Shown here: in pieces, positions 1 to 14,658 of the stretch
Layout: each line of letters begins with the position of its first letter
How positions within the stretch are numbered: the first letter of the stretch is position 1
Assembly: GCF_040907265.1 (NCBI RefSeq)
Contig: NZ_JBFOHP010000002.1
Span: forward strand, 558,001 to 622,000
Source: Streptomyces sclerotialus
GTDB lineage: Bacteria; Actinomycetota; Actinomycetes; Streptomycetales; Streptomycetaceae
Reading direction: 5' to 3'
Length of the DNA stretch: 64,000 nucleotides
Translations under genes and position numbers: made by a program
Notes under the pieces: model-generated
Seen by the model: only the letters and a program-made list of their open reading frames with translations
Told to the model about the DNA's origin: nothing
Databases searched by the model: none

Positions 1-1
1 G

Positions 2-247
2 GGCCTGGGCACGCTGGTGGCGCAGATCGCGAACTTCGCCCTGCCGGAGAAGATCCTGCTCGCCGGCGAGGGCGTGGGCCTGGTCGACGTCGCGGCACCG
101 GCGGTCCAGGAGGCCATATCCGCCAACCGGCACCCCTTGGCGGACCCCGTCGTCCTGGAGAGCAAGGTCTCCGACTTCCACCAGTGGGCCCGCGGCGCGG
201 CAGTCCTGGCCATTCAGGTACTGGTACTGGGCGCGAAGGAGGGGTGA
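2..247 (+). CDS. ROK family protein, C-terminal fragment (5' end outside window)
   Basis: Only the last 81 residues are present; the reading frame is open to the left edge. The stretch LLAGEGVGL followed by an amphipathic helix, and the end WARGAAVLAIQ, resemble the C-terminal half of the sugar-kinase-like domain in ROK (NagC/XylR-type) regulators and kinases. The DNA-binding or catalytic part lies outside the window, so regulator and sugar kinase cannot be separated. ROK regulators of this kind usually control sugar uptake or catabolic genes nearby. Confidence 0.6.
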   Translation, partial: GLGTLVAQIANFALPEKILLAGEGVGLVDVAAPAVQEAISANRHPLADPVVLESKVSDFHQWARGAAVLAIQVLVLGAKEG

Positions 248-495
248 GAGCCGGACCGCGCGATCATCGCATCGCGGCTGATGATGATTCTTCGGGAGCT
301 ACCGGGCGGGGGCTGCTAGGCCATCGGGCAGATGTCGTGGGGGTCGGTGCGGGATGCGGCGGCCGGGATGTGGGACGGTGCATGTGCGTCTCGTGGTCCG
401 GCCCGGCTCCCGCCCGTACGACTCTCCGTACGGCCCGGTCATGCTGGTTGGACCGTACGACGTGGAGGCAAGCACAACGAGGAGGAGAAGAGTCC

Positions 496-915
496 ATGTC
501 CAATCCGCCGCTTCCCGAGGCCGCCGTAGCCATGCTGAAGAAGCCGAACCCGGCTGTCATCACCACGCTCCGGTCCGACGGTCAGCCGGTGTCCACGGCC
601 ACCTGGTACCTCTGGGACGACGGCCGGGTGCTGGTCAACATGGACGAAGGCCGCAAGCGGCTGACCCATGTGCGCAGGGACCCGCGGGTCACGCTCACCG
701 CACTCGACGACGAGAGCTGGTACACGCACATCAGCATCATCGGGCGCGTCGTCGAACTGCGTGACGACGAAGGCCTGGCCGACATCGACCGGCTGGCTCA
801 GCACTACACGGGCAAGGAGTACCCGCAGCGGGACCGCAAGCGGGTCAGCGCCTGGATCGAGATCGACCGCTGGCACGGCTGGGGCACCCTCAAGGACAAC
901 AACCAGGTGGGCTGA
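496..915 (+). CDS. PPOX-class F420/FMN-dependent oxidoreductase
   Basis: A 139-residue protein of the split-beta-barrel flavin/deazaflavin-binding fold (pyridoxamine 5'-phosphate oxidase-like). The order is typical: helix 'LPEAAVAMLKKPNPAVITTL', strand 'GQPVSTATWYLWDDG', 'RKRLTHVRRDPRVTLTA' (cofactor phosphate side), and a C-terminal 'RKRVSAWIEIDRWHGWG'. Members usually reduce small substrates with F420H2 or bind FMN/heme; the substrate is unknown. The ATG at 496 has GGAGGAG about 6 nt upstream, so I prefer it to longer in-frame extensions that are not protein-like. Confidence 0.85.
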   Translation: MSNPPLPEAAVAMLKKPNPAVITTLRSDGQPVSTATWYLWDDGRVLVNMDEGRKRLTHVRRDPRVTLTALDDESWYTHISIIGRVVELRDDEGLADIDRLAQHYTGKEYPQRDRKRVSAWIEIDRWHGWGTLKDNNQVG

Positions 916-1230
916 CCAGAGGGCGAGGCCCCACCCCAAGGGGGCTCCCGAGGGACCGTTCCGAGGTCCTGAGCGATCATCCCCAGGGACCGTCCTGCGG
1001 GAGCACCCCGAGGGGCCGCAGGCGGGTCCGGCTCCGCCCAGTGCCCAGCCATCCCGCCTGCCGACCTGCCGACGGCCCTGACTGCCCCGCCTGCCGACCT
1101 GCCGACGGCCCTGACTGCCCCGCCTGCAGGCCCGCCCGCAGCCCTGGCCGGTCTGCTGGCTACGCGTCATCCGCCTGCCCGGCGTCCGGTTGTCCGGCTG
1201 CCCGGCTGCCCGGCTGCCCGGCTGCTCCGG
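916..1230. repeat. Gene-free spacer with GC-rich direct repeats
   Basis: No coding signal. About 1051-1130 holds a roughly 33-bp unit (CCTGCCGACCTGCCGACGGC core) repeated twice with a decayed third copy. About 1190-1228 holds a short CCGGCTGC array. The stretch lies between the convergent ends of the PPOX and carbonic anhydrase genes. Confidence 0.6.
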
Positions 1231-1836
1231 CTAGCCCGCGACCTGCCCGTTTCCGTCACTGCGGCCGCTGCCGGCTCCGCTGCCACTGCCGCTGCCGCTG
1301 CCGCTGCCGCTGCGTACGGTTTCCCGGTGGCGGGCGGCCAGGTCGACGTAGACCGCGGCGTTCAGCTTGATGGACTCCCGCTCCTCGTCGGTCAGCTCGC
1401 GCTTGACCTTGGCCGGTACGCCGGCGACCAGCGAATTGGGCGGCACCTGCATCCCCTGGGGAACCAGCGCCTGCGCGGCGACCAGCGATCCGGTGCCGAT
1501 GCGGGCACCGTTCAGCACCGTGGCGCCCATGCCGATCAGGACGTCGTCCTCGACGGTGCAGCCGTGCAGTACCGCGTTGTGACCGACCGACACCCGCTCG
1601 CCGACCGTGACCGGGAAACCGGGGTCGACATGAACGGTGCAGTTGTCCTGGATGTTGCTGTCCGCGCCGAGAACGATGGGGCCACCGTCGGCTCGCAGGA
1701 CGGTCTGGTACCAGACGCTCGAACCGGGAGCCATGGTGACCTCACCCAGTACGACGGAGGTCGGGGCGGTGAACGCGCCGGGGTCGATCTTCGGCTCCGG
1801 CCCGCCCACCCCGGAAATCAATGCCTGTCCCGTCAT
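1231..1836 (-). CDS. Gamma-class carbonic anhydrase family protein
   Basis: A 201-residue left-handed beta-helix protein built from hexapeptide repeats (for example IVLGADSNI, VTVGERVSV, VLIGMGATV). The metal ligands of gamma-carbonic anhydrases fit His69, His86 and His91 (the GHNAVLHGC motif). The likely reaction is reversible CO2 hydration in the cytoplasm, but many paralogues of this YrdA/PaaY type are not proven enzymes. The C-terminal 30 residues are an extra Ser-Gly tail (SGSGSGSGSGSGAGSG), encoded by a CCGCTG hexanucleotide microsatellite and absent from the compact family core. ATG 1836 is kept because the family N-terminus begins just after it. Confidence 0.88.
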   Translation of the reverse strand: MTGQALISGVGGPEPKIDPGAFTAPTSVVLGEVTMAPGSSVWYQTVLRADGGPIVLGADSNIQDNCTVHVDPGFPVTVGERVSVGHNAVLHGCTVEDDVLIGMGATVLNGARIGTGSLVAAQALVPQGMQVPPNSLVAGVPAKVKRELTDEERESIKLNAAVYVDLAARHRETVRSGSGSGSGSGSGAGSGRSDGNGQVAG

Positions 1837-1983
1837 CGCAGTCTCCTCGTGATGTCTTGTCGTCGCGCCGACAGCACCGTAGGTGACGTGCGCAGGGAAC
1901 CAGACCCTGCTGGGGCGAAGATCACAAGGAGATGAGGGATAGGAGGCAGCGGGACAGGCGGCGCCTTGCTCCTCAGCAGCGGT

Positions 1984-2688
1984 CTACTCGGCAGCGGCGG
2001 CTGTGGCGGCCGGCTGCTCTTCCTTCGTCCCCTGCTCTTCCTTCGCCTCCTGCTGCTCCTCATGCGCGGCGGCGGCCTTCGCGGCCCGGCGCTTCATGAC
2101 GATCAGCGAGCCGAGGCCGAAGAGGACCGCGGCGACCAGGCCCAGCCAGGAGAAGCGCTTCAGCCAGGGCTCGGCGACGATGCCGACGCTGTAGATCAGC
2201 GCGGTGGTGCCGCCCGCCCAGACGATGCCGCCCAGCACGTTGGCGATCAGGAACTTCCAGTACGGCATCCGCAGCACGCCCGACAGCGGCCCGGCGAAGA
2301 TCCGCAGCAGCGCGATGAAGCGGCCGAAGAACACCGCCCACATGCCCCACTTGTCGAACTTCTCCTCGGCCATCGCCACGTGCTCGGGCCCGAAGTGCCG
2401 GGGGAACTTCCGCCCCGCCCAGTCCAGCAGCGGCTGGCCGCCCTTGCGGCCGATGAGGTATCCGATGGAGTCGCCGACGATCGCACCGACCGTCGCGCAC
2501 GTGCCCAGCACGTACGGATTGATGTGGTCCTGGGTCGCGGCCAGCAGCGACGCGCTGACGAGGACGATCTCACCCGGCAGCGGGATGCCCAGGCTCTCCA
2601 CCCCGATGACCACCCCCACCAGGAGATAGACGCTCACCGCTGGTACGGACTCGAGCCACTCCTGGACGTGCAACGCGCCTTCCTCCAC
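1984..2688 (-). CDS. DedA family membrane protein
   Basis: A 234-residue integral membrane protein. It has the DedA/SNARE-associated signature: a re-entrant loop around 'GVVIGVESLGIPLPGE', a central 'GDSIGYLIGRKGG', and 'FFGRFIALLRIFAGPLSGVLRMPYWKFL'. About five hydrophobic segments are visible. DedA proteins are linked to phospholipid and undecaprenyl-phosphate flipping and membrane energetics. The last 35 residues are Ala/Glu/Lys-rich and probably cytosolic. It is separated from the carbonic anhydrase gene by about 150 nt. Confidence 0.9.
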   Translation of the reverse strand: MEEGALHVQEWLESVPAVSVYLLVGVVIGVESLGIPLPGEIVLVSASLLAATQDHINPYVLGTCATVGAIVGDSIGYLIGRKGGQPLLDWAGRKFPRHFGPEHVAMAEEKFDKWGMWAVFFGRFIALLRIFAGPLSGVLRMPYWKFLIANVLGGIVWAGGTTALIYSVGIVAEPWLKRFSWLGLVAAVLFGLGSLIVMKRRAAKAAAAHEEQQEAKEEQGTKEEQPAATAAAAE

Positions 2689-2914
2689 CTCGTATCGGGC
2701 CCATCGTGCGGGCCGCCCCCTGACGCGCGGTGCCGCGCGTCTGGGAAGCGTACTAGATCTGCTGGTCGCGGCCGCAGCCGTCGCCCTCGGCGCCCGGCAA
2801 CGGTCAGCCGCTGTTTATTCAGCTCATTCAGCTGGTTCACATGGTGTGACGCAACGTGAAGCCCATCAGTTGCCCGCGACCCCGGTGAAATCACGGACGG
2901 CCCCGGACGGAGAG

Positions 2915-2991
2915 CCCTGGCAGCCCTGGCAGCCCTGGCAGCCCTGGCAGTGCAGACAACGCAGACAGTGCAGACAACGCAGACAGCGCAA
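2915..2991. repeat. Two adjacent short tandem repeats
   Basis: A 9-bp unit (CCTGGCAGC) is repeated about four times, followed directly by two copies of an 18-bp unit GCAGACAACGCAGACAGT. Read on the plus strand it would give PWQ and CRQRRQ repeats, but there is no supporting start or downstream domain, so it is treated as non-coding. Confidence 0.8.
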
Positions 2992-3026
2992 TGAAGCTGG
3001 TGACCGCTCCGCGGCGGGAGGGCGTC

Positions 3027-3180
3027 GACGAGGCCGGGCGGGGGGTGCCGCTGGTGCCTGACGCCGGGAGACCGGGTCCTTCTGGTGACGGCCTGCCGGT
3101 GCACCGACCTCACTCCGCGGCAGCTGGCCCCGCTGTTCGGCGTCTCGAAGCGCGGCGCTGCGGCTGCTGGTCGACGATCC
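3027..3180 (+). pseudogene. IS5-type transposase remnant (N-terminal helix-turn-helix relic)
   Basis: In the plus frame ending with the lysine codon at 3148-3150, the conceptual translation reads LTPGDRVLLV then LTPRQLAPLFGVSK. This matches the N-terminal HTH segment common in Streptomyces IS5/DDE transposases (family pattern 'LT.RQLAPLFGVSKSAADRI'). The similarity stops right after the SK pair; neither the DDE catalytic part nor terminal inverted repeats are visible, and there is no start codon. I infer an old insertion eroded to about 150 bp. Confidence 0.5.
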
Positions 3181-3229
3181 CGGGAAAGCCCCGTTCACGT
3201 AGTGCTCCGAGGTCCTCCGGTCGCCGATG

Positions 3230-3260
3230 ATCTCCTGATCTCCTGATCTCCTGATCTCCT
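3230..3260. repeat. Octamer tandem repeat CTCCTGAT x4
   Basis: CTCCTGAT is repeated four times in a row with no interruption, in the gene-free stretch downstream of the biosynthetic operon. Confidence 0.85.
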
Positions 3261-3285
3261 CGAAGGTGTCGGCGATGACATCGCA

Positions 3286-3376
3286 TCCGGGTCTCGTCCG
3301 CCCCCGCACCGGGTCTCGTCCACCCCCGCACCGGGTCTCATCCCCCCCCCCGCACCGGATCCCGTCCGCCCCCGCA
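3286..3376. repeat. 22-bp tandem repeat, four copies
   Basis: The unit CCGGGTCTCGTCCGCCCCCG (plus CA) occurs four times: copies of 22, 22, 24 and 22 bp with one or two substitutions each. There are no spacers between the copies, so it is a minisatellite and not a CRISPR array. Confidence 0.88.
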
Positions 3377-3490
3377 CCACCGTCCCCACGTCGGCGCCGT
3401 GTGTCGCCCGGGCCCGGCTCGCGGCCTCCGGCCGGCGCGGGAGCTGCGGCTGAGCGGGCAAGCGCGGTGTGGAGCAGCTCGTACGAGCTG

Positions 3491-4681
3491 TCACGCCCGT
3501 TGTTCGGACAGTGCGTGGAGCCCAGCGCCGAGGTCTGCCTTGAGATCGTCGAGGTCCTCCAGGCCCACGTGGACGCGGACCAGAGGGCCCCGGCCGGACC
3601 AGGTACCCGGAAGGCGATGGCTGACCGGGTCGGCCGGCACGATCAGGCTTTCGTATCCGCCGTAACTGTGGCCGAGCCCGAACAGCCGCAACTCTCCCAG
3701 GAACGCGTCCACGGCGGGCTTACGGTACCGGGGATCCAGTTCGAGTCCGAACAGGCCCGCCGCACCGGAGAAATCCCGGTGCCACAACTCGTGTCCCGGA
3801 TCGTCAGGGAGGGCCGGGTAGAGCACGCTGACGACCCCGTCCTGTTTCTCCAGCCAGCGTGCGAGCTCCAAGGCCTGGTGCTGGTGGTGACGCAACCGGA
3901 CGCCGAGGGTGCGCAGTCCGCGCAGCCCGAGGTAGACGTCGTCCGAGCTCGCGCACTGCCCCAGCCTGATCGCTGTGGCGCGGACCGTGGCAAAGGTGGC
4001 CTCGGTGCACACGATGGCGCCGAGGATGCTGTCGGCGTGGCCGGTCAGGTATTTCGTCGCCGAGTGCACCACGACATCGGCGCCCAGACCCAGCGGCCGG
4101 CAGAAGGCGGGAGTGGCCCAGGTGTTGTCGATCACCGTGACGACCCCTCGGGAGCGGCACACACCAGTGATGGCCGGCACGTCCTGCACTTCAAAGGTGG
4201 TGGATCCGGGGGACTCCAGATAGACCAAGCGCGTGCGGGGGCGGAGCAGGTTGTCGATGTCCTTGCCCACACAGGGGTCGTAGTACTCGATCTCCACTCC
4301 CAGCCCGGTGAGGGAGTCGCAGAACTTCCGGGTGGGCAGGTAGACGGAGTCGCTGACCAGGATGTGGTCACCGGCCTGGACGAACGACAGAATCGCCGTG
4401 GTGATCGCGGCAAGGCCCGAGCAGGTGGCGACGGCGGCATACCCGCCTTCCAAGTCGGTCAGTGCCGCTTCGAACGCGCGGCCGGTGGGGGTGCCGAAAC
4501 GGCCGTACACCGGCATCTCGCGCTTGAGAGGGTCGGCCTGGGAGGCATCCATCGCCTCGATGTCCTCGTACAGCACGGTTGACGCCCGGTAGACCGGTGG
4601 GTTGACATAGCCGTGCTGTTTCCGAGGGTCGGAGCCCGCGTGCACGAACCGGGTGTCCATCGCGGCCGGGTGTTCCGTCAC
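3491..4681 (-). CDS. Cystathionine beta-lyase-type PLP enzyme (C-S lyase)
   Basis: A 396-residue Cys/Met-metabolism PLP enzyme. The lysine of 'SATKYLTGHAD' (K210) should form the Schiff base. 'YGRFGTPT', 'LESPGSTTFEVQDVPAI' and 'GLRTLGVRLRHH' follow the MetC pattern closely. MetC-type enzymes cleave C-S bonds of cystathionine, cystine or other S-substituted cysteines, giving pyruvate, ammonia and a thiol or persulfide. The GTG start overlaps the exporter stop (GTGA), so it is the last, translationally coupled gene of the operon. With the sulfurtransferase two genes upstream, a role in sulfur insertion or C-S cleavage during metabolite assembly is more likely than housekeeping methionine synthesis. 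Confidence 0.88.
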   Translation of the reverse strand: MTEHPAAMDTRFVHAGSDPRKQHGYVNPPVYRASTVLYEDIEAMDASQADPLKREMPVYGRFGTPTGRAFEAALTDLEGGYAAVATCSGLAAITTAILSFVQAGDHILVSDSVYLPTRKFCDSLTGLGVEIEYYDPCVGKDIDNLLRPRTRLVYLESPGSTTFEVQDVPAITGVCRSRGVVTVIDNTWATPAFCRPLGLGADVVVHSATKYLTGHADSILGAIVCTEATFATVRATAIRLGQCASSDDVYLGLRGLRTLGVRLRHHQHQALELARWLEKQDGVVSVLYPALPDDPGHELWHRDFSGAAGLFGLELDPRYRKPAVDAFLGELRLFGLGHSYGGYESLIVPADPVSHRLPGTWSGRGPLVRVHVGLEDLDDLKADLGAGLHALSEQRA

Positions 4682-5928
4682 GACACCGCCTCCAGTTCGG
4701 TACCCGTGGTCGGCTGCGCTTGAGCTGCTGTCCGGCGGCCGCCGAGCAGCAGCGCTGCGATGGCCATCACCGCACACTGGACCGCGACGAAGAGCCAGAA
4801 GGAGCCCAGCTCGCCCGCCTCCTCGTAGTGGGCGAACACGAAGCCGCCGACGACGCCGGCGAGCAGCCCACCACCGCCGGCGGCCAGCCGCTGTACTCCG
4901 AAGGCGAACGCCGGATTGCCCGGCACACGGTCGACGAGTTCCAGGTCGCAGCGCAGGAAGAGGAACACCTCGCTGAGCGTGAACATGGCCGTACCTGCCA
5001 GCAGGGCCGGGATGTTCCCCATTGACATCACGGTCATGCCCGCAGCCATCAGCGCGAAGGACCCGGCGAGCAGCCGACGGTAGTTGGCCCGTGCGATCCA
5101 CCCTGCCAGGGGCGGCTGCAGAAGTACCACCATGGCGCAGTTGACGAGCATGACCCAGCCGAGTGCCTGGAGGTTGGACACCCCGGCGGCGTAGAGGCCC
5201 ATGAAGCTCTGGAAGAAGAAATAGAGGTAGAAGACCGCGAACGTGAACAGCACTGGACGCAGGGCGCTGCGCAACGCCTGGCGTCTGCCGGTCCGGGCGG
5301 GTTCCCGGCCGTCGGGGTGGCTTCCGGGTACGGCAGGGGTGGGCGTCACGGGCCGCATGGTGACCTGGTGGGCCACCGTGATCAGGCCGAACAGCGCGGC
5401 CGCACTGAGCAGCAGTGTCACCGGGTTCGCATCGATCAGCAGGCCGGCGAGGAGCGGTCCCAGGCCCATGCCGGCGTTCAGGGCGGCGCTGCTGACACCG
5501 AGGAACAGCGGGCGCAGATCATCGGCGACCGAGGTGACGATGTACGCCTTGTTCGCCGGGAGGTACAGGGCGGGGCCCATGGAGACGAGCACCACCGCCG
5601 GATACGCGGCCCAGGGCACCACGACAGCCAGGCTGAGCAGGACGAGGCCCGCGGTGCGCAGGGCGAGCGAGACGACCATGGTCCGTTTGAGTCCGAGCCG
5701 GTCCACGACCGGTCCGCCCAGGATGCTGCCACCGAACTGGATGAACGTCGCCGCGGCAACCAGTACACCGGCCAGGCGTACGTCCAGCCCGACCCCATCG
5801 ACCAGGAGTACTCCGATGAAGGGGGTGATCATGTAGCTGCCCAGCGCCACGACGAAGGACAGCGTGATCAGGGCTTTCAGGCCCGACGGAAGGCCGGCGA
5901 ACGTTCGCCACTTGGCGGAGAAAGGCAT
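4678..5928 (-). CDS. MFS transporter, probable exporter of the cluster product
   Basis: A 416-residue, 12-helix major facilitator. Helix 1 contains 'LITLSFVVALGSYMITPFIGVLLVDG', and the loop after helix 2 carries 'GGPVVDRLGLKRTM', the MFS motif A. A hydrophilic loop of about 25 residues separates the two halves. The ATG lies 2 nt after the sulfurtransferase stop and the 3' end overlaps the lyase gene by 4 nt, so it belongs to one transcript. Drug/metabolite efflux or self-resistance is the simplest role; uptake cannot be excluded. Confidence 0.85.
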   Translation of the reverse strand: MPFSAKWRTFAGLPSGLKALITLSFVVALGSYMITPFIGVLLVDGVGLDVRLAGVLVAAATFIQFGGSILGGPVVDRLGLKRTMVVSLALRTAGLVLLSLAVVVPWAAYPAVVLVSMGPALYLPANKAYIVTSVADDLRPLFLGVSSAALNAGMGLGPLLAGLLIDANPVTLLLSAAALFGLITVAHQVTMRPVTPTPAVPGSHPDGREPARTGRRQALRSALRPVLFTFAVFYLYFFFQSFMGLYAAGVSNLQALGWVMLVNCAMVVLLQPPLAGWIARANYRRLLAGSFALMAAGMTVMSMGNIPALLAGTAMFTLSEVFLFLRCDLELVDRVPGNPAFAFGVQRLAAGGGGLLAGVVGGFVFAHYEEAGELGSFWLFVAVQCAVMAIAALLLGGRRTAAQAQPTTGTELEAVS

Positions 5929-5930
5929 CT

Positions 5931-6788
5931 TCAAGGCCGTGCGTCCTCGCTCTCCGCTCCGGTGGTGACCGGCAGGTCCGAGGGCAGGCCCCATTCGCTC
6001 CATGAGCCGTCGTAGACGGACAGTTCCTGGTACCCGGCCAGTTCGGCCGCCAGTGCCAGGACGCAGGCGGTCACGCCGGACCCGCAGCTGAAGAACAGTC
6101 GCTCCCGGTCGCCGGCCAGGGAGGAGAAGGCGGCGCGCAGCTCCGGTACGGGGAGCATCCGCCCGTCGTGCTGGACCTCGGAGAATGGCAGGTTGTGGGC
6201 GCCGGGCATGTGGCCACCGCGGAGCCCTGGGCGGGGTTCCGCGGCCACGCCGGCGAACCGCTCCCTGGAGCGGGCATCGAAGACACCGGCTCCCGGGTCG
6301 GCCAGGGCCGCTCTCACGGTGTCGCTGCCGACGATCAGCCCCGTGCGGGGCCGTGCGGTGAAGTCGCCGCGTCGGCCCGTGGGCGCGGGATCTCCGCTTT
6401 CGAGCGGGAGTCCGGCAGCGGTCCAGGCGGGCAGGCCACCGTCGAGAACGGCGGCCCGGTCGAAGCCCATCGCCCGCAGCATCCACCACGCCCGGGCGCT
6501 GGAGTAGATGCCGGCGCCGTCGTAGACGACGACGGTGCTGCTGTCGTCGACGCCGAGAGCGCGCATCGCCTCGGTGAATGCGGCAGCGCCGGGCATCGTG
6601 TGGGGCAGCGGGGAGGAATGATCGGACAGCGGACCGTCGATGTCGAAGGGCCGCGCCCCCGGAATCCGGTGCTCGGCACCTCGGTGGGCCCCTACCGAGG
6701 CATCGAAGACCACCAGTCCCGGCTCGGCCAGGCGGGCGGCGAGCCAATCGGCGTCGACGAGGGGGCCGGGCGGGTTCGTGGCGGTCAC
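5931..6788 (-). CDS. Mercaptopyruvate/thiosulfate sulfurtransferase (tandem rhodanese)
   Basis: A 285-residue protein with two rhodanese domains (about 10-125 inactive, 145-275 active). The catalytic Cys235 sits in CGSGVTA, the loop form typical of 3-mercaptopyruvate sulfurtransferases rather than thiosulfate rhodaneses. 'GHMPGAHNLPF' is the usual rhodanese strand-turn. The enzyme would carry sulfane sulfur as a Cys persulfide to an acceptor in the cytoplasm. The GTG start overlaps the upstream ATP-grasp stop (GTGA), which indicates coupled translation and a shared pathway. Confidence 0.88.
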   Translation of the reverse strand: MTATNPPGPLVDADWLAARLAEPGLVVFDASVGAHRGAEHRIPGARPFDIDGPLSDHSSPLPHTMPGAAAFTEAMRALGVDDSSTVVVYDGAGIYSSARAWWMLRAMGFDRAAVLDGGLPAWTAAGLPLESGDPAPTGRRGDFTARPRTGLIVGSDTVRAALADPGAGVFDARSRERFAGVAAEPRPGLRGGHMPGAHNLPFSEVQHDGRMLPVPELRAAFSSLAGDRERLFFSCGSGVTACVLALAAELAGYQELSVYDGSWSEWGLPSDLPVTTGAESEDARP

Positions 6789-7999
6789 AGCGTGCCTCCT
6801 GCGGACTCGGCGGGACGCCATCTGACGTGTTCGGAGAACCAGGCCAGGACCTTGTCCATGTTGACGGCCACCTCGTCCTCCGTGTCACCGGCCACGACAT
6901 AGCCGGCCAGGTACAGACCGGACTTGACGCCTCCGTGGAACTCCTGGCCGGCCTTCCCGGACAACGACACTTCACGGACGCAGTCCGGTTCGCCGCCGGA
7001 CGGCAGGTGCTCCAGCACGCCGGTGGTCGGCGGGATCCACATCCCGCCGGCGGGCTGGTAGGCGGGAGTGCCGAGCGTGGCGGGCAGGCCGCACTCGGCG
7101 TACAGCCACTCCTTGTCCAGGTCGATGCCGAAGGCATGGCGCACCACGGCGCTGACCATACCGCCGCCGGTACGACTGGCGACCTCGCAGAAGACCACCC
7201 GGTCGTCGGGAGTGATCCACAGTTCCGCGTGGAAGGCCGTGTGCGCCGGGGTGGGCAGCTCTGCAAGGACCGTCTTCGCCGCCTTGACCAGCCGGTCGTA
7301 CGCCGGATCCTGCGGTGCCAGCGGCAGGCTGCCCATCCATGCGTCGGCCCGGAAGGACAGACAGTCGTTGAGGTAGCGGAAGGGGTGGACGAATACCACT
7401 TCGCCGTTCACGACCAGGCCGTCGACGTGGTACATCTGCCCCGGGACGAAGGTCTCGATCTGGCTGGTCCCGCGCCATGGACGGGCGAGGTAGGCGTTCA
7501 GTTCCGTCTCGTCACGGATGATGTTCGCACCCAGCGAGCCCGACTCCGACACGGGCTTGATCACCACTGGGTAGCCGTGCTCTGCAATGAACTCCACGGC
7601 GGTGTAGGCCGAGTCGAGGAGCCGGTAGGCGGGAATCTCCACCGCCCCGCCGGCAAGGTGGTCCTTCATGACCACCTTGTCGCGGAAGGCGAGTGCGCTC
7701 GGGGTCCGCTGCCCCGGCAGGTCCAGCAGGTCCCGCAGCTGGGCGGCCCGCACCACATCTGCCTCGGCTCGGGCGAAGACCGCCTCGACCGCATGGGCGC
7801 GGGCCAGTCCCAGCGCCGTCTTCTCGACGAGCTGGTTGGTGTCGTAGTCGTCGAAGGCGTGCACATGCGGCAGATGGGCGTAGCCTGCCGCGAACTCCGT
7901 CGTGGTCAGGATGATCGGTTCGATGCCCGAGCCGGCCAGCCACCGGTCGTAGGGGGTCTTGGCGTGGGGCGTCTTGGCGAAGACGAGGACGTAGCGCAT
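6785..7999 (-). CDS. ATP-grasp carboxylate-amine ligase (second ligase)
   Basis: A 404-residue ATP-grasp protein. The N-terminal Rossmann-like part begins 'MRYVLVFAKTP'. The ATP-binding lysines fit 'RDKVVMKDHL' and 'GYPVVIKPVSESGSLG'. The Mg-binding acidic strand fits 'TAFHAELWITPDDRVVFCEVASRTGGG'. Such enzymes activate a carboxylate as acyl-phosphate and join it to an amine or another nucleophile, often making dipeptides. The gene starts 11 nt after the radical SAM gene and overlaps the sulfurtransferase. The substrate cannot be read from sequence. Confidence 0.88.
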   Translation of the reverse strand: MRYVLVFAKTPHAKTPYDRWLAGSGIEPIILTTTEFAAGYAHLPHVHAFDDYDTNQLVEKTALGLARAHAVEAVFARAEADVVRAAQLRDLLDLPGQRTPSALAFRDKVVMKDHLAGGAVEIPAYRLLDSAYTAVEFIAEHGYPVVIKPVSESGSLGANIIRDETELNAYLARPWRGTSQIETFVPGQMYHVDGLVVNGEVVFVHPFRYLNDCLSFRADAWMGSLPLAPQDPAYDRLVKAAKTVLAELPTPAHTAFHAELWITPDDRVVFCEVASRTGGGMVSAVVRHAFGIDLDKEWLYAECGLPATLGTPAYQPAGGMWIPPTTGVLEHLPSGGEPDCVREVSLSGKAGQEFHGGVKSGLYLAGYVVAGDTEDEVAVNMDKVLAWFSEHVRWRPAESAGGTL

Positions 8000-8010
8000 G
8001 GTTGCCGTCC

Positions 8011-9282
8011 TCAGGCCTTCGCGTCGACGAGGAGGGGCAGTCGGCGCCGCGCAGGAACGCGTGACACCAGCCCCATCTCCTCGGAGAGCTCCGTGGCGAA
8101 GCAGCCGTCCTTGTAGGCGCCGGACAGCCGCTTTGCCGTGAAGGCTTCGATCTTCTCCTCATCGAACTCCAGGTCGTAGCGCGCCTGCCGGCCGTCGTCA
8201 GTGACCGTGCGCACAAGGGTCCCGAGGTGGGGCTCGAAGGTGTTGACGCAGCCGACGATGTCCCCGATCTTCTCGCGGCGCTCGTCCGCGGTTTCCGACA
8301 GGACCTCTTCCTGAGTGGGGATGACGGCGAAGAGCTGACGGCCGGCCCGGCACCAGCCGACGTGTCCGGGGAAGTCCATGACCTTGATGCCGAAGGTGCC
8401 GAAGTCCTCGCTGACGCCGAGCTGGAAGTTCAGCTCCACGTTCTCGTGCAGCCACTTGAAGTCGCGGTAGGCCTGCTCGATCTCTTCGCGACTCAGGCGG
8501 AGCTCGGGATGGCGCCCACCGTGGTCGGTGAAGTTGTTGAACCGTACGGTCTCGACGCCCAGCTTGTTGAAGTAGCGGGCGTACCGCTCCAGGGACTCGC
8601 GGCCGTGGTTGTGGCGACCGACGGTGACGCCGATGTTGATGCGGAACGCGTCGGTGATCTCGGCGTCCTGCGGCAGGCCGGCACGGTACCGCTTGTTGTA
8701 GTCCTCGATCCGGCGCACCACCTCCTCGGTGTTCGCGCCGCTGAAGACCCCCTTGATCGGGTAGCTGCCGTCGTCCACCACGGTGAGGTTCTCGTCGATG
8801 ACGCCGTGGTAGGTGATGGAGATCGTGCCGTAACCGCACTCCCGGGCGAGGTCGAGGAGCTCTGTGCAGTTGTCCGCGAGCAGCGGGCGCCCACTGGTCC
8901 AGGCGTCGCCCTTCTCCATCGTTTCCGTGGGCTTGTGGTCGGACTCCTGCCGGAATTCCCGGTTGTTGGCGGGGCCGTAGAGGCGCATGAACTCTCCGTC
9001 GTACGCGAAGCTGTCCACGTAGCGCGGGTAGACGTGGTACCCGTGCGACTGGAGGCCCGCCAGGATCTGCGGCCCCTCCTCCATGGCGAACGACTTGTCG
9101 TGCACCTTCTCGTAGTTGACGAACCAGCAGTGCGTGCACTTCTGCCCGCAGGTGTTCTTCCCGACCTTGGTGTCCAGATCGAGGTAGATATGGATGTCCT
9201 CAGGCTTGAGGTCCGTGAAAGGCACGGTAAAAGGCGCGTCACCGTGAAAATCGTAAGAAATCGGCGTGTTCTCGGCAGACAT
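8011..9282 (-). CDS. Radical SAM enzyme of the orphan cluster
   Basis: A 423-residue radical SAM protein. The canonical CX3CX2C cluster is present as C45, C49 and C52 (NTCGQKCTHCWF), followed by a TIM-barrel-like pattern ('YGTISITYHGVIDEN', 'FRINIGVTVGRHNHGRESLERY', 'ETVRFNNFTDHGG'). There is no clear SPASM/twitch cysteine set, although the C-terminal half has isolated cysteines (GWCRAG, IVGCVNTF). No RiPP precursor is seen nearby, so a small-molecule substrate is more likely. ATG 9282 has GAGGGGG 4-5 nt upstream; a start at 9297 would bury this site. The first codons are unusually AT-rich for this genome. Confidence 0.88.
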   Translation of the reverse strand: MSAENTPISYDFHGDAPFTVPFTDLKPEDIHIYLDLDTKVGKNTCGQKCTHCWFVNYEKVHDKSFAMEEGPQILAGLQSHGYHVYPRYVDSFAYDGEFMRLYGPANNREFRQESDHKPTETMEKGDAWTSGRPLLADNCTELLDLARECGYGTISITYHGVIDENLTVVDDGSYPIKGVFSGANTEEVVRRIEDYNKRYRAGLPQDAEITDAFRINIGVTVGRHNHGRESLERYARYFNKLGVETVRFNNFTDHGGRHPELRLSREEIEQAYRDFKWLHENVELNFQLGVSEDFGTFGIKVMDFPGHVGWCRAGRQLFAVIPTQEEVLSETADERREKIGDIVGCVNTFEPHLGTLVRTVTDDGRQARYDLEFDEEKIEAFTAKRLSGAYKDGCFATELSEEMGLVSRVPARRRLPLLVDAKA

Positions 9283-9321
9283 GTGTCCCCCTCGCATGAT
9301 GGATCGACAGAAGGAAGAGAG

Positions 9322-9356
9322 GCGGGCAGAGCGGGAACGCGGCAGGCTCTGCCCGC
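9322..9356. promoter_or_regulatory. Stem-loop between ATP-grasp and radical SAM genes
   Basis: GCGGGCAGAG at 9322-9331 pairs perfectly with CTCTGCCCGC at 9347-9356 over a 15-nt loop, inside the only long gap (96 nt) of the operon. It could be a processing, attenuation or partial termination site that sets the first gene apart from the other five. Confidence 0.6.
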
Positions 9357-9378
9357 GGTCAGGCGCCCGGCCTGGGGT

Positions 9379-10617
9379 TCAGAGAGCGGGCCGGGAAGTG
9401 ATGATCGGGAGGGCCGTCAGCTCCGCCACGGCCGCAACGCACTCCGCGGTGCTCGCCGCGGTCAGGACAGCCATCCCCAGCCGGTCCGCGGAAGACCGGA
9501 GTGGCTGCACCACATCTCCGGGGCGCACCAGCACGTCCCACAGCCCGATGGATCCGTGCCGCAACGAAGGCTTCGGCGCGACGGCCGTCACCCGGCCGGG
9601 AGGCGCGGTGAAGAATACGGTCGCCGCTGCGGCGGCTGCGGGCGTCTCGCGCTGGAGTCCCTCGCCGACGGCCCAGCCGAGGGCGGCGCGGCGCCAGTCG
9701 ACGCCGGTGGTGAGCAGCACCAGATCGGCGAGTCCGTCCCCGCCGAGGCGGTTGTGGGTCTCGATGACGATGACCTTGTCACCGTCGATCTTGATCTCGG
9801 TGTGGCTCGGGCCGTCCGTCAGGCCTACGGCATCGAGGGTTTCCCTGACGGCCTGCTCCACCAGCCCATGCCGGGCGGGATCCAGGGAGGGCGGCGGCAT
9901 CATGTGGCTGACCTCCACGAAGCCGTCCGTCGTCCCCTTCTCGGCGATGCCCACGAGGGTGTGTCGCCCTCCTGAGGACATCGCTTCGACACTGAACTCC
10001 CGGCCGTCTGCGTACTGTTCGAGGAGCGTGGCCGCAGTCCTGCGGTCCTGCGGAAGCTCCTCGAGGCGCTCGACGAGCGCCACGGCAGCGCTGCCGGCTC
10101 CGTCGACCGGCTTGACCACCACCCGCGCGTGCGCGGCGAACAGCCGCTCCACGGCGACGGTGTCGTCGCCTGGCGCGAAGGCCGGGTTGAGGTGAGGCGC
10201 TTTCCGTTCAAGGATGCGCCGCATTTCCAGCTTGTCGCGAGTGCCTCTGACGACACTCGCCGCCACGCCTTTCGCCCCGAGGCGTTCTGCTGCGGCCGCC
10301 GCCGGCTCCAGGCCGAGCTCCGTGAGGGAAACGACGGCCGATGGCGACAGCGGATGGAGCACCTCGTCGATGAATGAGGTGAAGGCGGCGCGGTCCTGGT
10401 AATCGACCGTGAAGATCCGGTGGGTCCCCCGGGCCTGCAGGTCGTCGAGGTCAAGCGCCGGCGCGTCCGGCAGTTGCACGTGGATGACGTCGGCGGGGAG
10501 GGCGGCGGCCGCACGGGCCACCGTCGGATTGGCCCCGACGATCACCAGGGTCACGACGACGTCTCTTGAACTTGTATACAGCAGCACATCGTCAGCCCCC
10601 CGAATCCCCTGAGTCAT
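9379..10617 (-). CDS. ATP-grasp ligase (first gene of the operon)
   Basis: A 412-residue ATP-grasp enzyme of the carbamoyl-phosphate-synthase-like/L-amino-acid ligase type. 'VTLVIVGANPTVARAAA' is the N-terminal nucleotide-fold strand, 'RDKLEMRRIL' and 'ARVVVKPVDGAGSAAVALV' give the ATP-binding lysines, and 'HTEIKIDGDKVIVIETHNRLGGD' gives the metal-binding strand. Expected activity is ATP-dependent amide or peptide-bond formation. The start is uncertain: ATG 10617 has no Shine-Dalgarno site, while GTG 10554 begins exactly at the first beta strand and has a TATACA -10-like box (10573-10578) just upstream. With that start the protein would be 391 residues. Confidence 0.85.
   Translation of the reverse strand: MTQGIRGADDVLLYTSSRDVVVTLVIVGANPTVARAAAALPADVIHVQLPDAPALDLDDLQARGTHRIFTVDYQDRAAFTSFIDEVLHPLSPSAVVSLTELGLEPAAAAAERLGAKGVAASVVRGTRDKLEMRRILERKAPHLNPAFAPGDDTVAVERLFAAHARVVVKPVDGAGSAAVALVERLEELPQDRRTAATLLEQYADGREFSVEAMSSGGRHTLVGIAEKGTTDGFVEVSHMMPPPSLDPARHGLVEQAVRETLDAVGLTDGPSHTEIKIDGDKVIVIETHNRLGGDGLADLVLLTTGVDWRRAALGWAVGEGLQRETPAAAAAATVFFTAPPGRVTAVAPKPSLRHGSIGLWDVLVRPGDVVQPLRSSADRLGMAVLTAASTAECVAAVAELTALPIITSRPAL
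10573..10578 (-). promoter_or_regulatory. -10-like hexamer TATACA upstream of GTG 10554
   Basis: TATACA on the minus strand lies 18 nt before the GTG at the conserved N-terminus of the first ATP-grasp enzyme. No convincing -35 element is visible. If it is real, translation cannot begin at ATG 10617. Confidence 0.35.
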
Positions 10618-10710
10618 TGAACGCGGAACGAAACGAATCGCAGGCCACCCGGTACGCCCGCGGCGACCGCAGTTCGAGCCGCTCCACGAGCGTCAAGTTC
10701 GCACCGACGC

Positions 10711-10734
10711 TCACACGTCGTCAACGTCGTGTGA
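10711..10734. promoter_or_regulatory. Inverted repeat, candidate operator of the cluster
   Basis: TCACACG (10711-10717) and CGTGTGA (10728-10734) are perfect inverted arms around a 10-nt centre. The pair is about 95 bp upstream of the first possible start of the ATP-grasp/radical SAM operon, where a repressor or activator site would be expected. No regulator gene sits next to it. Confidence 0.45.
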
Positions 10735-11370
10735 CGAGTATCACATGCATCACGGAATAACCCCGGCCTCTCGGTCGTTCGCACCCTGGCACCGGCTCGA
10801 CCTGCTGCGTCGATTCGTTCGCGCATCATGGGGAGACCTCGCCCCGCCAGGAATCGTGTCCCGCCACGTCGAGCTGCGGAGCCTCGGCGACGACGCTTTC
10901 GCAAAGTCGGCTTCGGCGCGCCAGGCCGCCCAGGACGCCGAACTCCACGACGGCCTCGAACACGGGCGGCGCCGTCGAAGTCAGTCTCGGGGCGCCCAGG
11001 AAGGAAAACGCAGCTCAACTTCGTACACGGCGAGCCCGGACCGGCCTCAAGACGGATGCCACACGCTCATCGCGCGCACTCCGAGGCCCGCGAACTGTTC
11101 GGCCCCTTCATCCGTTCGCACGTTGCGCACATCATTGGACGCTTCGGCACGCCGAGAGGGATGCCACGGCTTGGATGCCACGGAATGGACGCCACGGACG
11201 CCGAGGAGCATGCATGACCACTGCCCACTGCGCCCCGGCCGTGCCGGTCAGCCGGTGACGTCCGTGCTCGCATGATCCGCAGGGCCGCCCCGAGCAGAAC
11301 GCCGGTCGCCCCCTTCGCCCTGCGTCGGGAGCCGTGAGACGTGGTCTCGCGCCGGTGACTCGGCCGCAGT
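10735..11370. other. Gene-poor stretch upstream of the orphan operon
   Basis: Open frames exist on both strands, but none has a ribosome site, family motif or consistent codon bias. Near 11155-11210 the motif ATGCCACGG recurs. I see no gene; decayed coding DNA is possible. Confidence 0.5.
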
Positions 11371-11378
11371 CGAAGAAG

Positions 11379-11406
11379 CCGGGCCGCGGCCGAAGGGACG
11401 GCCCGG
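11379..11406 (-). terminator. Stem-loop downstream of the thioesterase gene
   Basis: CCGGGCCG (11379-11386) pairs with CGGCCCGG (11399-11406) around a 12-nt loop, 38-65 nt past the stop of the minus-strand hotdog gene. There is no U-tract, as is usual in Streptomyces. Confidence 0.55.
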
Positions 11407-11443
11407 CCCGGTAGCAGGTCTCAGAGAGCCTTTCCGTGTGCCC

Positions 11444-11896
11444 TCAGTCGTTCAGCCGCAGCGTCCACACGACCGTCATCTCGCCCGTGACGGCCCCGTC
11501 CTCGCGCTGAATGGCGATACCGACCGGGAACTCCGGGCGCCCGCCCGCATCCAGCTCGGCCACGACCTCGTCCACCGGGCGGCCCAGGGTCGCCGTGGCT
11601 GTCACCGGCCCCTTGGCCACCTTCTTGTAGCCGATCTCGGCCCGCACCGCGAGCGGTACCGCACGAGAGAGCTGGTCACCGAAGGCCTTGAGGACAACAG
11701 CGCCGCTGGCGGACTCGGCCAGGGTGAACATGGCGCCCGCGTGGGGGCCGCCGATGTGGTTGTGGAAGTCCGGCTGGTCCGGGAGCCGGAGCACCGCACG
11801 CTCCGAGGTGACCTCGTCGAACTCCAGATTCAGGGTCCGCACCATCGGGACCGCGGCGGCCAGCATTTCGCCCATCGAGGCGCTCTCAACTGTCAT
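11444..11896 (-). CDS. Hotdog-fold thioesterase-like protein (DUF4442/PaaI type)
   Basis: A 150-residue single hotdog domain. 'FHNHIGGPHAGAMFTLAESASGAVV' matches the helix-and-loop signature of PaaI/DUF4442 acyl-CoA thioesterases, with HNHIGG near the catalytic site. Two long strand segments, 'AVPLAVRAEIGYKKVAKGPVTATATL' and 'GAVTGEMTVVWTLRL', complete the fold. It probably hydrolyses an acyl-CoA in the cytoplasm; the substrate is unknown. A single transcription unit, bounded by a hairpin at its 3' end. Confidence 0.82.
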   Translation of the reverse strand: MTVESASMGEMLAAAVPMVRTLNLEFDEVTSERAVLRLPDQPDFHNHIGGPHAGAMFTLAESASGAVVLKAFGDQLSRAVPLAVRAEIGYKKVAKGPVTATATLGRPVDEVVAELDAGGRPEFPVGIAIQREDGAVTGEMTVVWTLRLND

Positions 11897-12096
11897 GGGT
11901 GCGATGTTACCGACGGGTAGTACGGCTGGCCACCCTGGTGGCCGCCTCGCTCCCCTGCCCCTCCCCGTAAAAGCTCCTCGTAGGTAACGTGCCGGCGCGG
12001 TGCCGAAGCCGCCCGAAGCACCGCGAAGCGCATGTGAACGTCAGGGTTCTGTCACGCTCCAGCGGGGCAACTGTGACACCTCCCACCTCGGCCCTT

Positions 12097-12102
12097 TATC
12101 GT
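12097..12102 (+). promoter_or_regulatory. -10 box of a probable leaderless promoter
   Basis: TATCGT ends 8 nt before ATG 12111, and no Shine-Dalgarno sequence precedes that ATG. Together these fit a leaderless transcript. Confidence 0.45.
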
Positions 12103-12110
12103 TAGCGCCC

Positions 12111-13136
12111 ATGTGGCCAGGACAGCAGCCGCCCGGGGGCGAGCAGAACCCGCAGGATCAGAACCCTTATCAGCAGCCGGGGTACCAACAGCCGAATCCG
12201 TACCAGCAGCAGGGGTATCAGCAGCCGGGTTACCAGCAGCCGCACGGCTACCAGCAGCCGACGCAGCCGCAGTGGCAGGTACCGGGCGGACCGCAGTCCC
12301 CCAAGGACAACGGCCGCAACGAGAAGAAGACCACCATGACGATCGCCATCGTCGCGGCGGTAGCGGTCGTGGCGGCCGCCGTGGTCACCGGCGTCTTCGT
12401 CCTCCAGGGCGGCGAGAAGAAGCCCGTCGCCCATGACGACCCGAAGCCCACCCGGTCCGAGTCCGCGACGGCCGAACCCACGGAGTCGGCGGGCGGCGAG
12501 AGCGAGGGCGGCGGGCCCGGCAGCGACCCGAACGCGCCCGGTAAGCCCGTCATCAAGGGCTGGCAGACGGTGGTCAACGCCAAGCGGCACGTGGCGTTCG
12601 ACGTCCCCACCGAGGACTGGACGACCACCTCGGCCGACACCTACACCGGGTTCCAGGACGAGAAGGACAAGTCCGGGTTCCCCAAGACCCTCATCTCGAT
12701 GACCGCACCGGCCTACTTCAAGGAGGACTGGTGCACCGTCAAGGACAAGGACGGCAACGAGTCCACCGCCTCGCTGGCCGGCACCGGCGTCAAGGGCGCG
12801 CAGGGCGCCAAGAGCCAAGGTGAGGCCGCCCAGAACGAGGCCCTGAACTGGGTCTGGGCCGGTTACGACCAGAAGAAGACCGGTACCTTCAAGGGCACCA
12901 AGGCCAAGTCCTTCAAGAGCGATCACGGCATCACCGGAAAGCTGTCGACGGCGACCGTGACCGGCGTGAAGAAGGACAACAAGTGCGACTCGGACGGCAA
13001 GGCGTACGCGGTCACGTACACCGACACCACCGGTGAGTACGCGACCTGGATCCTTTACGCTGCCAAGGACGTCAAGGGCGAGATCGACGAGGCCACGGTC
13101 AAGAAGATCATGAGCTCCCTCCGGCCGCTCGAATAA
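12111..13136 (+). CDS. Membrane-anchored extracellular protein with PYQQPGYQQP repeats
   Basis: A 341-residue protein of unknown function. Residues 1-60 are a Pro/Gln/Tyr-rich cytosolic repeat (PYQQPGYQQP type). One transmembrane helix follows at about 78-100 ('MTIAIVAAVAVVAAAVVTGVFVL'), then a Ser/Glu/Gly linker and an extracytoplasmic domain of about 180 residues. That domain has two cysteines (DWCTV and NKCDS) that may pair, and ends 'VKKIMSSLRPLE'. The layout is common in Streptomyces surface proteins. ATG 12111 is chosen because upstream codons are not protein-like and a leaderless -10 box is present. Confidence 0.8.
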   Translation: MWPGQQPPGGEQNPQDQNPYQQPGYQQPNPYQQQGYQQPGYQQPHGYQQPTQPQWQVPGGPQSPKDNGRNEKKTTMTIAIVAAVAVVAAAVVTGVFVLQGGEKKPVAHDDPKPTRSESATAEPTESAGGESEGGGPGSDPNAPGKPVIKGWQTVVNAKRHVAFDVPTEDWTTTSADTYTGFQDEKDKSGFPKTLISMTAPAYFKEDWCTVKDKDGNESTASLAGTGVKGAQGAKSQGEAAQNEALNWVWAGYDQKKTGTFKGTKAKSFKSDHGITGKLSTATVTGVKKDNKCDSDGKAYAVTYTDTTGEYATWILYAAKDVKGEIDEATVKKIMSSLRPLE

Positions 13137-13160
13137 CCGAGTGACGCCTCCGGGCGAGCA

Positions 13161-13241
13161 CGCCATGCTGTGGTGCTGACCGCCATGCTGTCGTGCTGAC
13201 CCGCCATGTTGTTGTGATGAACGCGATGCTGTTGTGATGAA
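13161..13241 (+). repeat. Four 20-bp tandem repeats carrying mini-ORFs before an MFS gene
   Basis: Copies at 13161-13180, 13181-13200, 13202-13221 and 13222-13241 share the pattern CGCCATGCTGT.GTGCTGAC. Each holds its own ATG and in-frame stop: ATG 13165 (MLWC), 13185 (MLSC), 13206 (MLL) and 13226 (MLL). The last stop overlaps the MFS start as TGATG (13235-13239). Confidence 0.85.
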
Positions 13242-14613: not shown

Positions 14614-14658
14614 GAGCCGGTGTCGCCGGCCCGCACCGAACGGCCACGACCGGCAGCG

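Follow-up and report, generated by a model that had tools for sequence, protein, structure and literature searches.

An operon recurring in Streptomyces combines a radical SAM protein with predicted amino acid ligases, a sulfurtransferase and a C-S lyase and may make a small sulfur metabolite

The window analysed here, a stretch of 64,000 nucleotides from Streptomyces sclerotialus, carries six genes on the minus strand between positions 3491 and 10617, which we refer to in gene order as LIG1, RSAM, LIG2, MST, MFS and CBL. Starting from LIG1, they are separated by a 96-nt gap (LIG1-RSAM), an 11-nt gap, a GTGA overlap, a 2-nt gap and a second GTGA overlap. The open reading frames and the four tight junctions are those that a first-pass annotation of the DNA had described. 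No NRPS gene was found among the six.

RSAM (8011 to 9282, minus strand, 423 aa) is a predicted radical SAM enzyme of an uncharacterised SPASM/Twitch-fold family, with a C45-x3-C49-x2-C52 motif and three further cysteines, C311, C345 and C394. Translation most likely starts at the ATG at 9282, where the upstream sequence AGGGGGACAC is also seen in its relatives, rather than at position 9297. Neither Pfam nor NCBIfam gave a family match for the window protein at E ≤ 0.001, and PF04055 was touched by 13 of the 29 members of the RSAM alignment at E ≤ 5, with a best value of 0.0011. Judged by the predicted structure, this failure is a miss of the sequence model and not of the fold: the model contains a radical SAM barrel, and its best fold matches, extending to residue 404-406, were SPASM/Twitch enzymes, with MiaB at rank 20 (E 2.5e-03). 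No solved relative was found by phmmer up to E 1, and assigning a structure by profile search was rejected, the matches starting at a non-credible E of 0.17. The earlier call of a radical SAM enzyme thus gained a predicted SPASM/Twitch structure, while its support from sequence remained slight beyond CxxxCxxC.

That motif was present in 117 of the 120 listed RSAM homologues (the other three being gapped there), and C311, C345 and C394 were kept in 120, 118 and 118 of them, respectively. Over the same 120 homologues, 46 columns are invariant. RSAM was the best conserved operon member in the sequence comparison. It lacks the full seven-cysteine SPASM motif and retains three conserved C-terminal cysteines; we therefore considered it Twitch-like or MoaA-like. 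The pattern suggests that C311, C345 and C394 hold an auxiliary Fe-S cluster with one open iron. Before the strand at residue 31, the predicted model contains a 3-residue strand and a short helix and no winged helix, and RSAM was therefore judged to be without a RiPP recognition element. The RSAM family is uncharacterised, and neither Pfam nor NCBIfam has a curated model that covers it.

CBL (3491 to 4681, minus strand, 396 aa) is a MetC-type PLP C-S lyase (Cys_Met_Meta_PP). It matched the cystathionine beta-lyase model TIGR01324 at 9.4e-139 (462.3 bits, above the cut-off of 365.9) and the solved cystathionine beta-lyase 1cl1 (E. coli MetC) at 5.2e-95. Equivalents of MetC Lys210, Tyr111 and Arg372 are retained; the substrate-contact residues are not all retained, with Arg59 replaced by Phe, Tyr238 by Ile and Tyr338 by His (E. 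coli MetC numbering). CBL falls within a clade of its own (76 rows, SH-aLRT 99), in which His338 occurs in 75 rows, against 0 of the 44 other listed proteins, many of which also deviate from MetC at positions 59 and 116. Positions 59, 238 and 338 of MetC are named in paper titles as mutated or specificity-determining. The same genome holds four other CBL matches, with just 34-40% identity. A weak alanine racemase activity is attributed to E. coli MetC in the available part of one report (PMC5025676), and CBL could act on a different substrate or as a racemase.

Both ATP-grasp proteins named in the first-pass annotation are, by their domains and folds, predicted L-amino acid ligases. LIG1 (9379 to 10617, minus strand, 412 aa), which may in fact begin at a GTG further downstream, combines an ATP-grasp domain with a LAL_C2 C-terminal domain, both above cut-off in Pfam (ATP-grasp_4 2.4e-14, LAL_C2 4.1e-12); its nearest solved chain is the L-amino acid ligase BL00235 (3vot, 5.1e-17), and its identity was 68-72% in 11 of the 12 Streptomyces loci described below. 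LIG2 (6785 to 7999, minus strand, 404 aa; ATP-grasp_4) has a RizA-like L-amino acid ligase fold. Scores against equivalog models were far under cut-off for both, at 36.4 against 850 for LIG1 with BacD and 33.3 against 840 for LIG2 with DdaF.

MST (5931 to 6788, minus strand, 285 aa, GTG start) is a two-domain rhodanese of the 3-mercaptopyruvate-sulfurtransferase type. It scored just below the cut-off of 250 for NCBIfam PRK11493 (228.3 bits, 9.4e-68) and matched the solved 3-mercaptopyruvate sulfurtransferase 1urh of E. coli at 2.3e-56. Its active-site loop CGSGVT (SCGSGVTA), found in the window, in 11 of the 12 loci and in locus L023, falls in the CG(S/T)GVT motif class of 3-mercaptopyruvate sulfurtransferases. 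A further rhodanese-type match, 43% identical to MST, lies in the same genome. The MFS exporter (4678 to 5928, minus strand, 416 aa) matched MFS_1 at 1.3e-28 and, weakly, MdtH (2.6e-13) and YdeE (6.7e-06), in a scan that began at position 5889 and so missed 13 residues of the protein. YdeE is termed a dipeptide exporter in PMC9600279; calling the window protein a YdeE-type dipeptide exporter was rejected as too strong, since it scored just 25.4 bits where the cut-off is 582.

The grouping of the genes was followed across 392 Streptomyces genomes, with at most four candidates scored per genome. Matches to RSAM (E ≤ 0.001), CBL (E ≤ 1e-140) and LIG2 (E ≤ 1e-100) fell in an identical set of 9 genomes, with the genes adjacent, and this coincidence indicates a grouping beyond chance. 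A contig scan found 12 named loci, every one in Streptomyces, of which 10 matched all six genes. LIG1 was missing from one locus (L008) and from one of the nine genomes (G219), probably one species counted twice, and MST from another locus (L009). Across the 13 loci compared, i.e., the window and the 12 named loci, no flanking ORF of at least 80 aa was common to at least three. On sequence grounds, the six genes are one self-recurring unit. The label "orphan" given to the operon earlier consequently holds for its function and not for its distribution, which includes other genomes. No tRNA gene was found in the window or in 11 of the 12 loci, L008 having a tRNA-Ser close to RSAM, and insertion at a tRNA site was therefore dismissed. 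None of the six proteins matched PADLOC phage-defence models at E ≤ 1e-5, and carriage by phages was supported neither by a match in a phage collection nor by profile in viral contigs.

RSAM, LIG2 and CBL genes were also found on common contigs in divergent lineages, where they evolve in step. This contig-sharing test shows linkage and not gene order, whole chromosomes being uninformative on adjacency, and its control was restricted to contigs of 3-65 kb. The comparison covered the best 120 matches among about 8,000 candidates scored, with proteins clustered at 90%, so that a mismatch does not amount to absence. The co-occurrence evidence for CBL does not extend to the enterobacterial and Burkholderiales relatives. 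Proteobacterial neighbourhoods came from two plasmid records. The Providencia operon has one ligase, no MST and a PatB-family C-S lyase replacing CBL; on the E. cloacae plasmid, MST adjoins an RSAM remnant and MFS. The best model for both MFS proteins was YdeE, far below cut-off at 78.8 and 68.6 bits, respectively. Neither MST nor LIG1 is strictly needed, since L009 and the Providencia operon do without the former and L008 and G219 without the latter. Fold-type-I PLP enzymes include both PatB and MetC, and the exchange is thus one between families and not between unrelated folds; in this one operon, it points to C-S cleavage as a common need. Neither of the refuting outcomes that the first-pass annotation had named was observed: among the relatives listed, none carried a pathway name, and the genes did co-occur.

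The 96-nt LIG1-RSAM gap, when folded, contained a perfect 11-bp inverted repeat with a 13-nt loop (9322 to 9356, minus strand, coordinates counted by hand). This hairpin is strong and is possibly an attenuator or terminator; its sequence is not common to other loci. Some of these have gap hairpins of differing sequence, and no common regulatory element was therefore established. A generic scan returned one promoter and one terminator against 0.5 and 2.9 expected by chance, i.e., near or below chance, and its loop limit of 8 excluded the 13-nt-loop hairpin. Rfam gave no match up to E 0.5 in positions 1-14000 of the window. Likewise, neither the LIG1-RSAM gap nor the 2 kb around the operon contained a small ORF of 20-120 aa common to at least 4 of the 13 loci; two groups of three loci each fell under this number and were therefore taken as chance. 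The earlier statement that the operon has neither a RiPP precursor nor a regulator agrees with these searches.

Parts of the operon resemble known systems. As in the bacilysin (BacD), RizA and dapdiamide (DdaF) pathways, there are predicted amino acid ligases (by fold for LIG2, and by LAL_C2 and BL00235 for LIG1) and a dedicated exporter, whereas the equivalog scores set LIG1 and LIG2 apart from BacD and DdaF. None of these three pathways is known to have the radical SAM, MST and C-S lyase set. CBL resembles MetC in passing TIGR01324 and keeping the Lys210, Tyr111 and Arg372 equivalents, and differs in its own clade and three changed contacts. By analogy, the proposed logic is like that of ergothioneine EgtB/EgtE, in which a cysteine C-S bond is followed by a PLP C-S lyase (excerpt of PMC4493562); here, however, the candidate C-S bond maker is a radical SAM protein instead of a non-haem iron enzyme, and the lyase is of the MetC or PatB family. 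The predicted RSAM model shares with the sactisynthases CteB and SkfB the radical SAM core fold and a C-terminal auxiliary-cluster domain, with 12% identity over aligned residues; RSAM differs in having no RRE, no precursor peptide found and two ATP-grasp ligases beside it. An open auxiliary-cluster site, suggested in RSAM by the three cysteines, has been reported in CteB and observed in SkfB, which has a [2Fe-2S] cluster there; the cysteine bound to the open iron in the structure of CteB comes from the leader peptide and is not the thioether-forming one (excerpt of PMC6231123). In the open-licence literature, represented largely by titles and the starts of abstracts, we found no pathway with this RSAM-ligase-MST-lyase gene set, in line with the first-pass annotation; PMC3680222 lists a radical SAM region and a rhodanese region in different rows of a table.

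Taken as a whole, that annotation's interpretation was partly supported. We infer that the product contains sulfur. That the six genes make and export a small amino-acid-derived sulfur metabolite, without an NRPS or ribosomal precursor, is on the sequence evidence a possibility a little short of an even chance. In this reading, RSAM would bind a small amino-acid substrate near the three-cysteine (C311, C345, C394) auxiliary cluster, whose open iron would take a cysteine thiolate or the substrate, and a 5'-deoxyadenosyl radical would take a hydrogen atom, leading to a C-S bond at a hard-to-attack carbon. CBL, its active site re-cut, would then release pyruvate and ammonia from the cysteine moiety so that the sulfur stays behind as a thiol. 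MST may supply or retrieve sulfane sulfur or repair clusters, LIG1 and LIG2 would add one or two amino acids, and MFS would export the finished product. A bolder version, which we consider somewhat unlikely, is that a free-standing Twitch-type RSAM would place sulfur on an unactivated carbon of a small amino acid or dipeptide, first as a cysteine thioether made at its open auxiliary cluster, from which a dedicated C-S lyase would unmask the thiol.

The same genes can be read differently. MiaB/RimO-type enzymes insert sulfur carried on an open auxiliary-cluster iron, and RSAM might do likewise, with CBL making thiocysteine or sulfide and MST the persulfide that recharges the cluster; the product would again be a thiolated amino acid or dipeptide, and a cysteine conjugate would never form. 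The three-cysteine motif, the presence of MST in 11 of the 12 named loci and its position beside the RSAM remnant and MFS in E. cloacae fit this route, which we nevertheless rate as decidedly improbable given that L009 and the Providencia operon lack MST and that MiaB ranks well behind the SPASM/Twitch enzymes among the structural matches. The chemistry on a small ligase-built product could also spare sulfur altogether, the PLP enzyme and RSAM performing an elimination, racemisation, dehydrogenation or C-C bond formation while MST maintains Fe-S clusters. The SPASM/Twitch fold reveals function poorly, and the best fold matches include anSME, a dehydrogenase, and SuiB, which crosslinks side chains; against this stands the PatB-family C-S lyase that replaces CBL in Providencia, albeit in a single operon, and we consider this alternative unlikely.

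CBL and MST also resemble dedicated versions of primary-metabolic enzymes and might be insensitive spare copies instead of biosynthetic enzymes, protecting the producer from its own product, an amino-acid analogue toxic to cystathionine beta-lyase or to sulfur metabolism. Rhizobitoxine-type inhibitors hit MetC, PatB/MalY can replace MetC, the Providencia PatB-family protein is likewise a C-S lyase, and the genome's second rhodanese-type match would be in keeping with a spare MST. Yet at 34-40% identity, the other four CBL matches make no same-type housekeeping target evident, and the substrate-contact changes in the CBL clade are as compatible with a new substrate as with resistance, which leaves self-protection with a small probability. 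CteB, SkfB and SuiB illustrate that SPASM/Twitch enzymes are often RiPP maturases (excerpt of PMC6231123), but a RiPP pathway whose precursor peptide escaped notice appears extremely improbable in view of the missing winged-helix domain, the lack of a widely common small ORF and the 46 invariant RSAM columns.

Clusters of this type are expected to be overlooked by rules based on NRPS, PKS or RiPP genes, although the genes have remained linked across great evolutionary distances. The accessory ones, a sulfurtransferase and C-S lyases of two families, indicate that sulfur is handled. Once identified, the product would show whether free amino acids can be thiolated by radical SAM enzymes. If the thiolation reading is true, Twitch-type thiolation would be a radical, ribosome- and NRPS-independent route to free thiol amino acids in several phyla, and the product could belong to a new class of thiol dipeptides that are exported and perhaps act as antimetabolites.

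All six genes that the first-pass annotation had proposed as an operon were present on the minus strand at 3491-10617, and the junctions it had described were matched in the sequence. In transcription order, the ATP-grasp ligase gene LIG1 (9379-10617) comes first and is followed, after a gap of 96 nt, by the radical SAM gene RSAM (8011-9282), which lies 11 nt before the second ATP-grasp ligase gene, LIG2 (6785-7999). A GTGA overlap joins LIG2 to the 3-mercaptopyruvate-type sulfurtransferase gene MST (5931-6788), 2 nt separate MST from the exporter gene MFS (4678-5928), and another GTGA overlap leads to the MetC-type C-S lyase gene CBL (3491-4681), which is last. Visual inspection showed an exact TTGACA upstream of LIG1 in 10 of the 12 named Streptomyces loci matching the operon (L001-L007, L009, L010, and L012), and in 8 of these 10 GATGTT, GATTGT, or ATTGTC stands approximately 17 to 18 nt downstream, again by eye; the counterpart in the window is TTGACG. 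The TTGACA and its downstream element look like a shared operon promoter.

The host genome is 8.28 Mb in two contigs, with the window covering 558 to 622 kb of one of them. Elsewhere in the window, a P-type ATPase of 1527 aa (52022-56605, minus strand) has its first Pfam match from residue 789, leaving a long N-terminal region to which no Pfam family was matched at E ≤ 0.001. A second EF-Tu gene is located at 17076-18326 (minus strand), and it gives the weaker of the two EF-Tu domain-3 matches in the host genome (95.2 versus 140.2 bits). A divergent or antibiotic-insensitive kind of EF-Tu (tuf3) occurs in Streptomyces, and this gene is possibly such a tuf3-like copy.

RSAM was found in 9 of 392 Streptomyces genomes, as were CBL (E ≤ 1e-140) and LIG2 (E ≤ 1e-100), and the three sets comprised the same nine genomes, with neighboring coordinates. 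MST and MFS were matched in all nine and LIG1 in eight, and one of the nine carried a second MST on another contig. Across the phylum-wide sample, RSAM was detected in just 2 of 396 genomes, the host included and both of them Streptomyces, and the distribution is therefore sporadic. When the six-gene neighborhood was sought elsewhere, as the first-pass annotation had suggested, all six genes were matched in 10 of the 12 named loci; the others were L008 (S. morookaense), without LIG1, and L009 (S. flaveolus), without MST. By eye, a short 5' remnant of LIG1 seems to precede RSAM in L008 (approximately 9600-10001). The RSAM-carrying genome G219, which probably represents the same species as L008, gave no LIG1 match at E ≤ 1e-60. 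Counted among the 10 complete loci is L010 (S. misionensis), whose MFS match (13376-15030) is in separate pieces with an inverted fragment in between, reflecting either a broken gene or an assembly fault. No flanking ORF of at least 80 aa was common to at least 3 of 13 loci. RSAM was the most conserved protein (median identity 81%), with 70 to 77% for the remaining operon proteins. At the sequence level, the six genes behave as a unit under selection.

Linkage was also assessed from shared contigs, recognized by equal source-contig sizes across the protein lists (119 RSAM, 120 LIG2, and 120 CBL matches; P0033, a listed homolog, had no value). Among the matches listed, 37 contigs carried both RSAM and LIG2, 24 carried RSAM and CBL, and 19 carried all three genes. 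For contigs of 3 to 65 kb, the RSAM-LIG2 and RSAM-CBL counts were 29 and 16, versus 0.27 and 0.26 in jittered controls (n = 1000; maximum 3 each). Pairwise distances of the three proteins were correlated over the 19 contigs (r = 0.93, 0.92, and 0.95; no permutation out of 9999 reached these values), and they were also correlated among the eight contigs that diverged most (r = 0.71, 0.79, and 0.88). Given these correlations, RSAM, LIG2, and CBL seem to have evolved together. None of the Enterobacterales or Burkholderiales RSAM relatives was among the linked contigs for the matches listed.

A quick maximum-likelihood tree was built from 121 proteins (the best 120 of 7998 CBL matches plus E. coli MetC), with SH-aLRT as the only support measure. 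In it, 76 of the 121 fell on one branch (SH-aLRT 99, length 0.43; among the matches listed), including all 38 proteins linked by shared contig to RSAM or LIG2; the MetC branch was long. In MetC numbering, His338 was present in 75 of the 76 clade members (P0292 has Tyr) and in 0 of the 44 other listed matches, and Phe59 in 75 of the 76 (P0299 has Met) and in 8 of the 44. Position 238 was Ile in the window CBL and in 36 of the 38 linked proteins, and position 340 varied between Trp and Tyr within the linked set. Lys210, Tyr111, and Arg372 were retained in all 120 listed proteins. By the titles cited in PMC5025676, MetC positions 59, 238, and 338 are among those probed by mutation. The altered residues at these three positions, together with retention of Lys210, Tyr111, and Arg372, argue that the substrate of CBL has probably changed with the chemistry unchanged.

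The nearest relatives of RSAM are Streptomyces proteins; outside that genus, named RSAM relatives came from Kitasatospora, Corallococcus, Teredinibacter, Pantoea, Serratia, Photorhabdus, Trinickia, and Halarcobacter. A plasmid of Providencia sp. R33 carries RSAM (48%), one LIG1-type ATP-grasp protein (27%), an MFS protein without BLASTP similarity to the window MFS at E ≤ 1e-3, and a C-S lyase of the PatB family, a different PLP family from CBL; in this operon, CBL is evidently replaced by a lyase of another family. The plasmid of E. cloacae WP8-W19-CRE-02 encodes a decayed RSAM, MST (45%), and MFS (30% over 106 residues). These genes lie in that order at approximately 8001-10521 of pWP8-W19-CRE-02_1, typed as conjugative, and we regard them as the remains of the operon in a Serratia/Pantoea-like form. 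In a subfamily of relatives (P0101, P0107, P0110, P0117, and P0118; one named Trinickia), CRQxCxHCF(F/Y)INQP replaces CGQxCxHCWFVNYE. This subfamily shared no contig with LIG2 or CBL among the matches listed, and it may serve a different pathway.

For the pathway as a whole, we tentatively favor, at a little short of even confidence, a route in which RSAM would join cysteine to a small amino-acid substrate via a C-S bond, CBL would release the thiol from the cysteine conjugate, MST would handle sulfane sulfur or maintain a cluster, LIG1 and LIG2 would append amino acids, and MFS would export the product. In CteB, the open iron of the auxiliary cluster is reported to be occupied by a leader cysteine (PMC6231123). 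This route builds on genes that recur as a unit, on predicted folds and conserved cysteines, and on a lyase that has diverged and that is replaced by one of another family in Providencia; from these we infer the reaction, the order of steps, and the sulfur in the product. Non-sulfur chemistry is unlikely, insertion of sulfane sulfur in place of the cysteine-conjugate route is slightly less likely, and a role in self-protection is the least likely of these readings.

Ligase-built dipeptide pathways and unmasking by C-S lyases are kinds already known. The first-pass annotation had not recognized the gene set as a described pathway, and in the part of the openly licensed literature covered by a targeted search this gene combination was likewise not found. 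There is a fair chance that the six-gene pathway would involve new radical chemistry.
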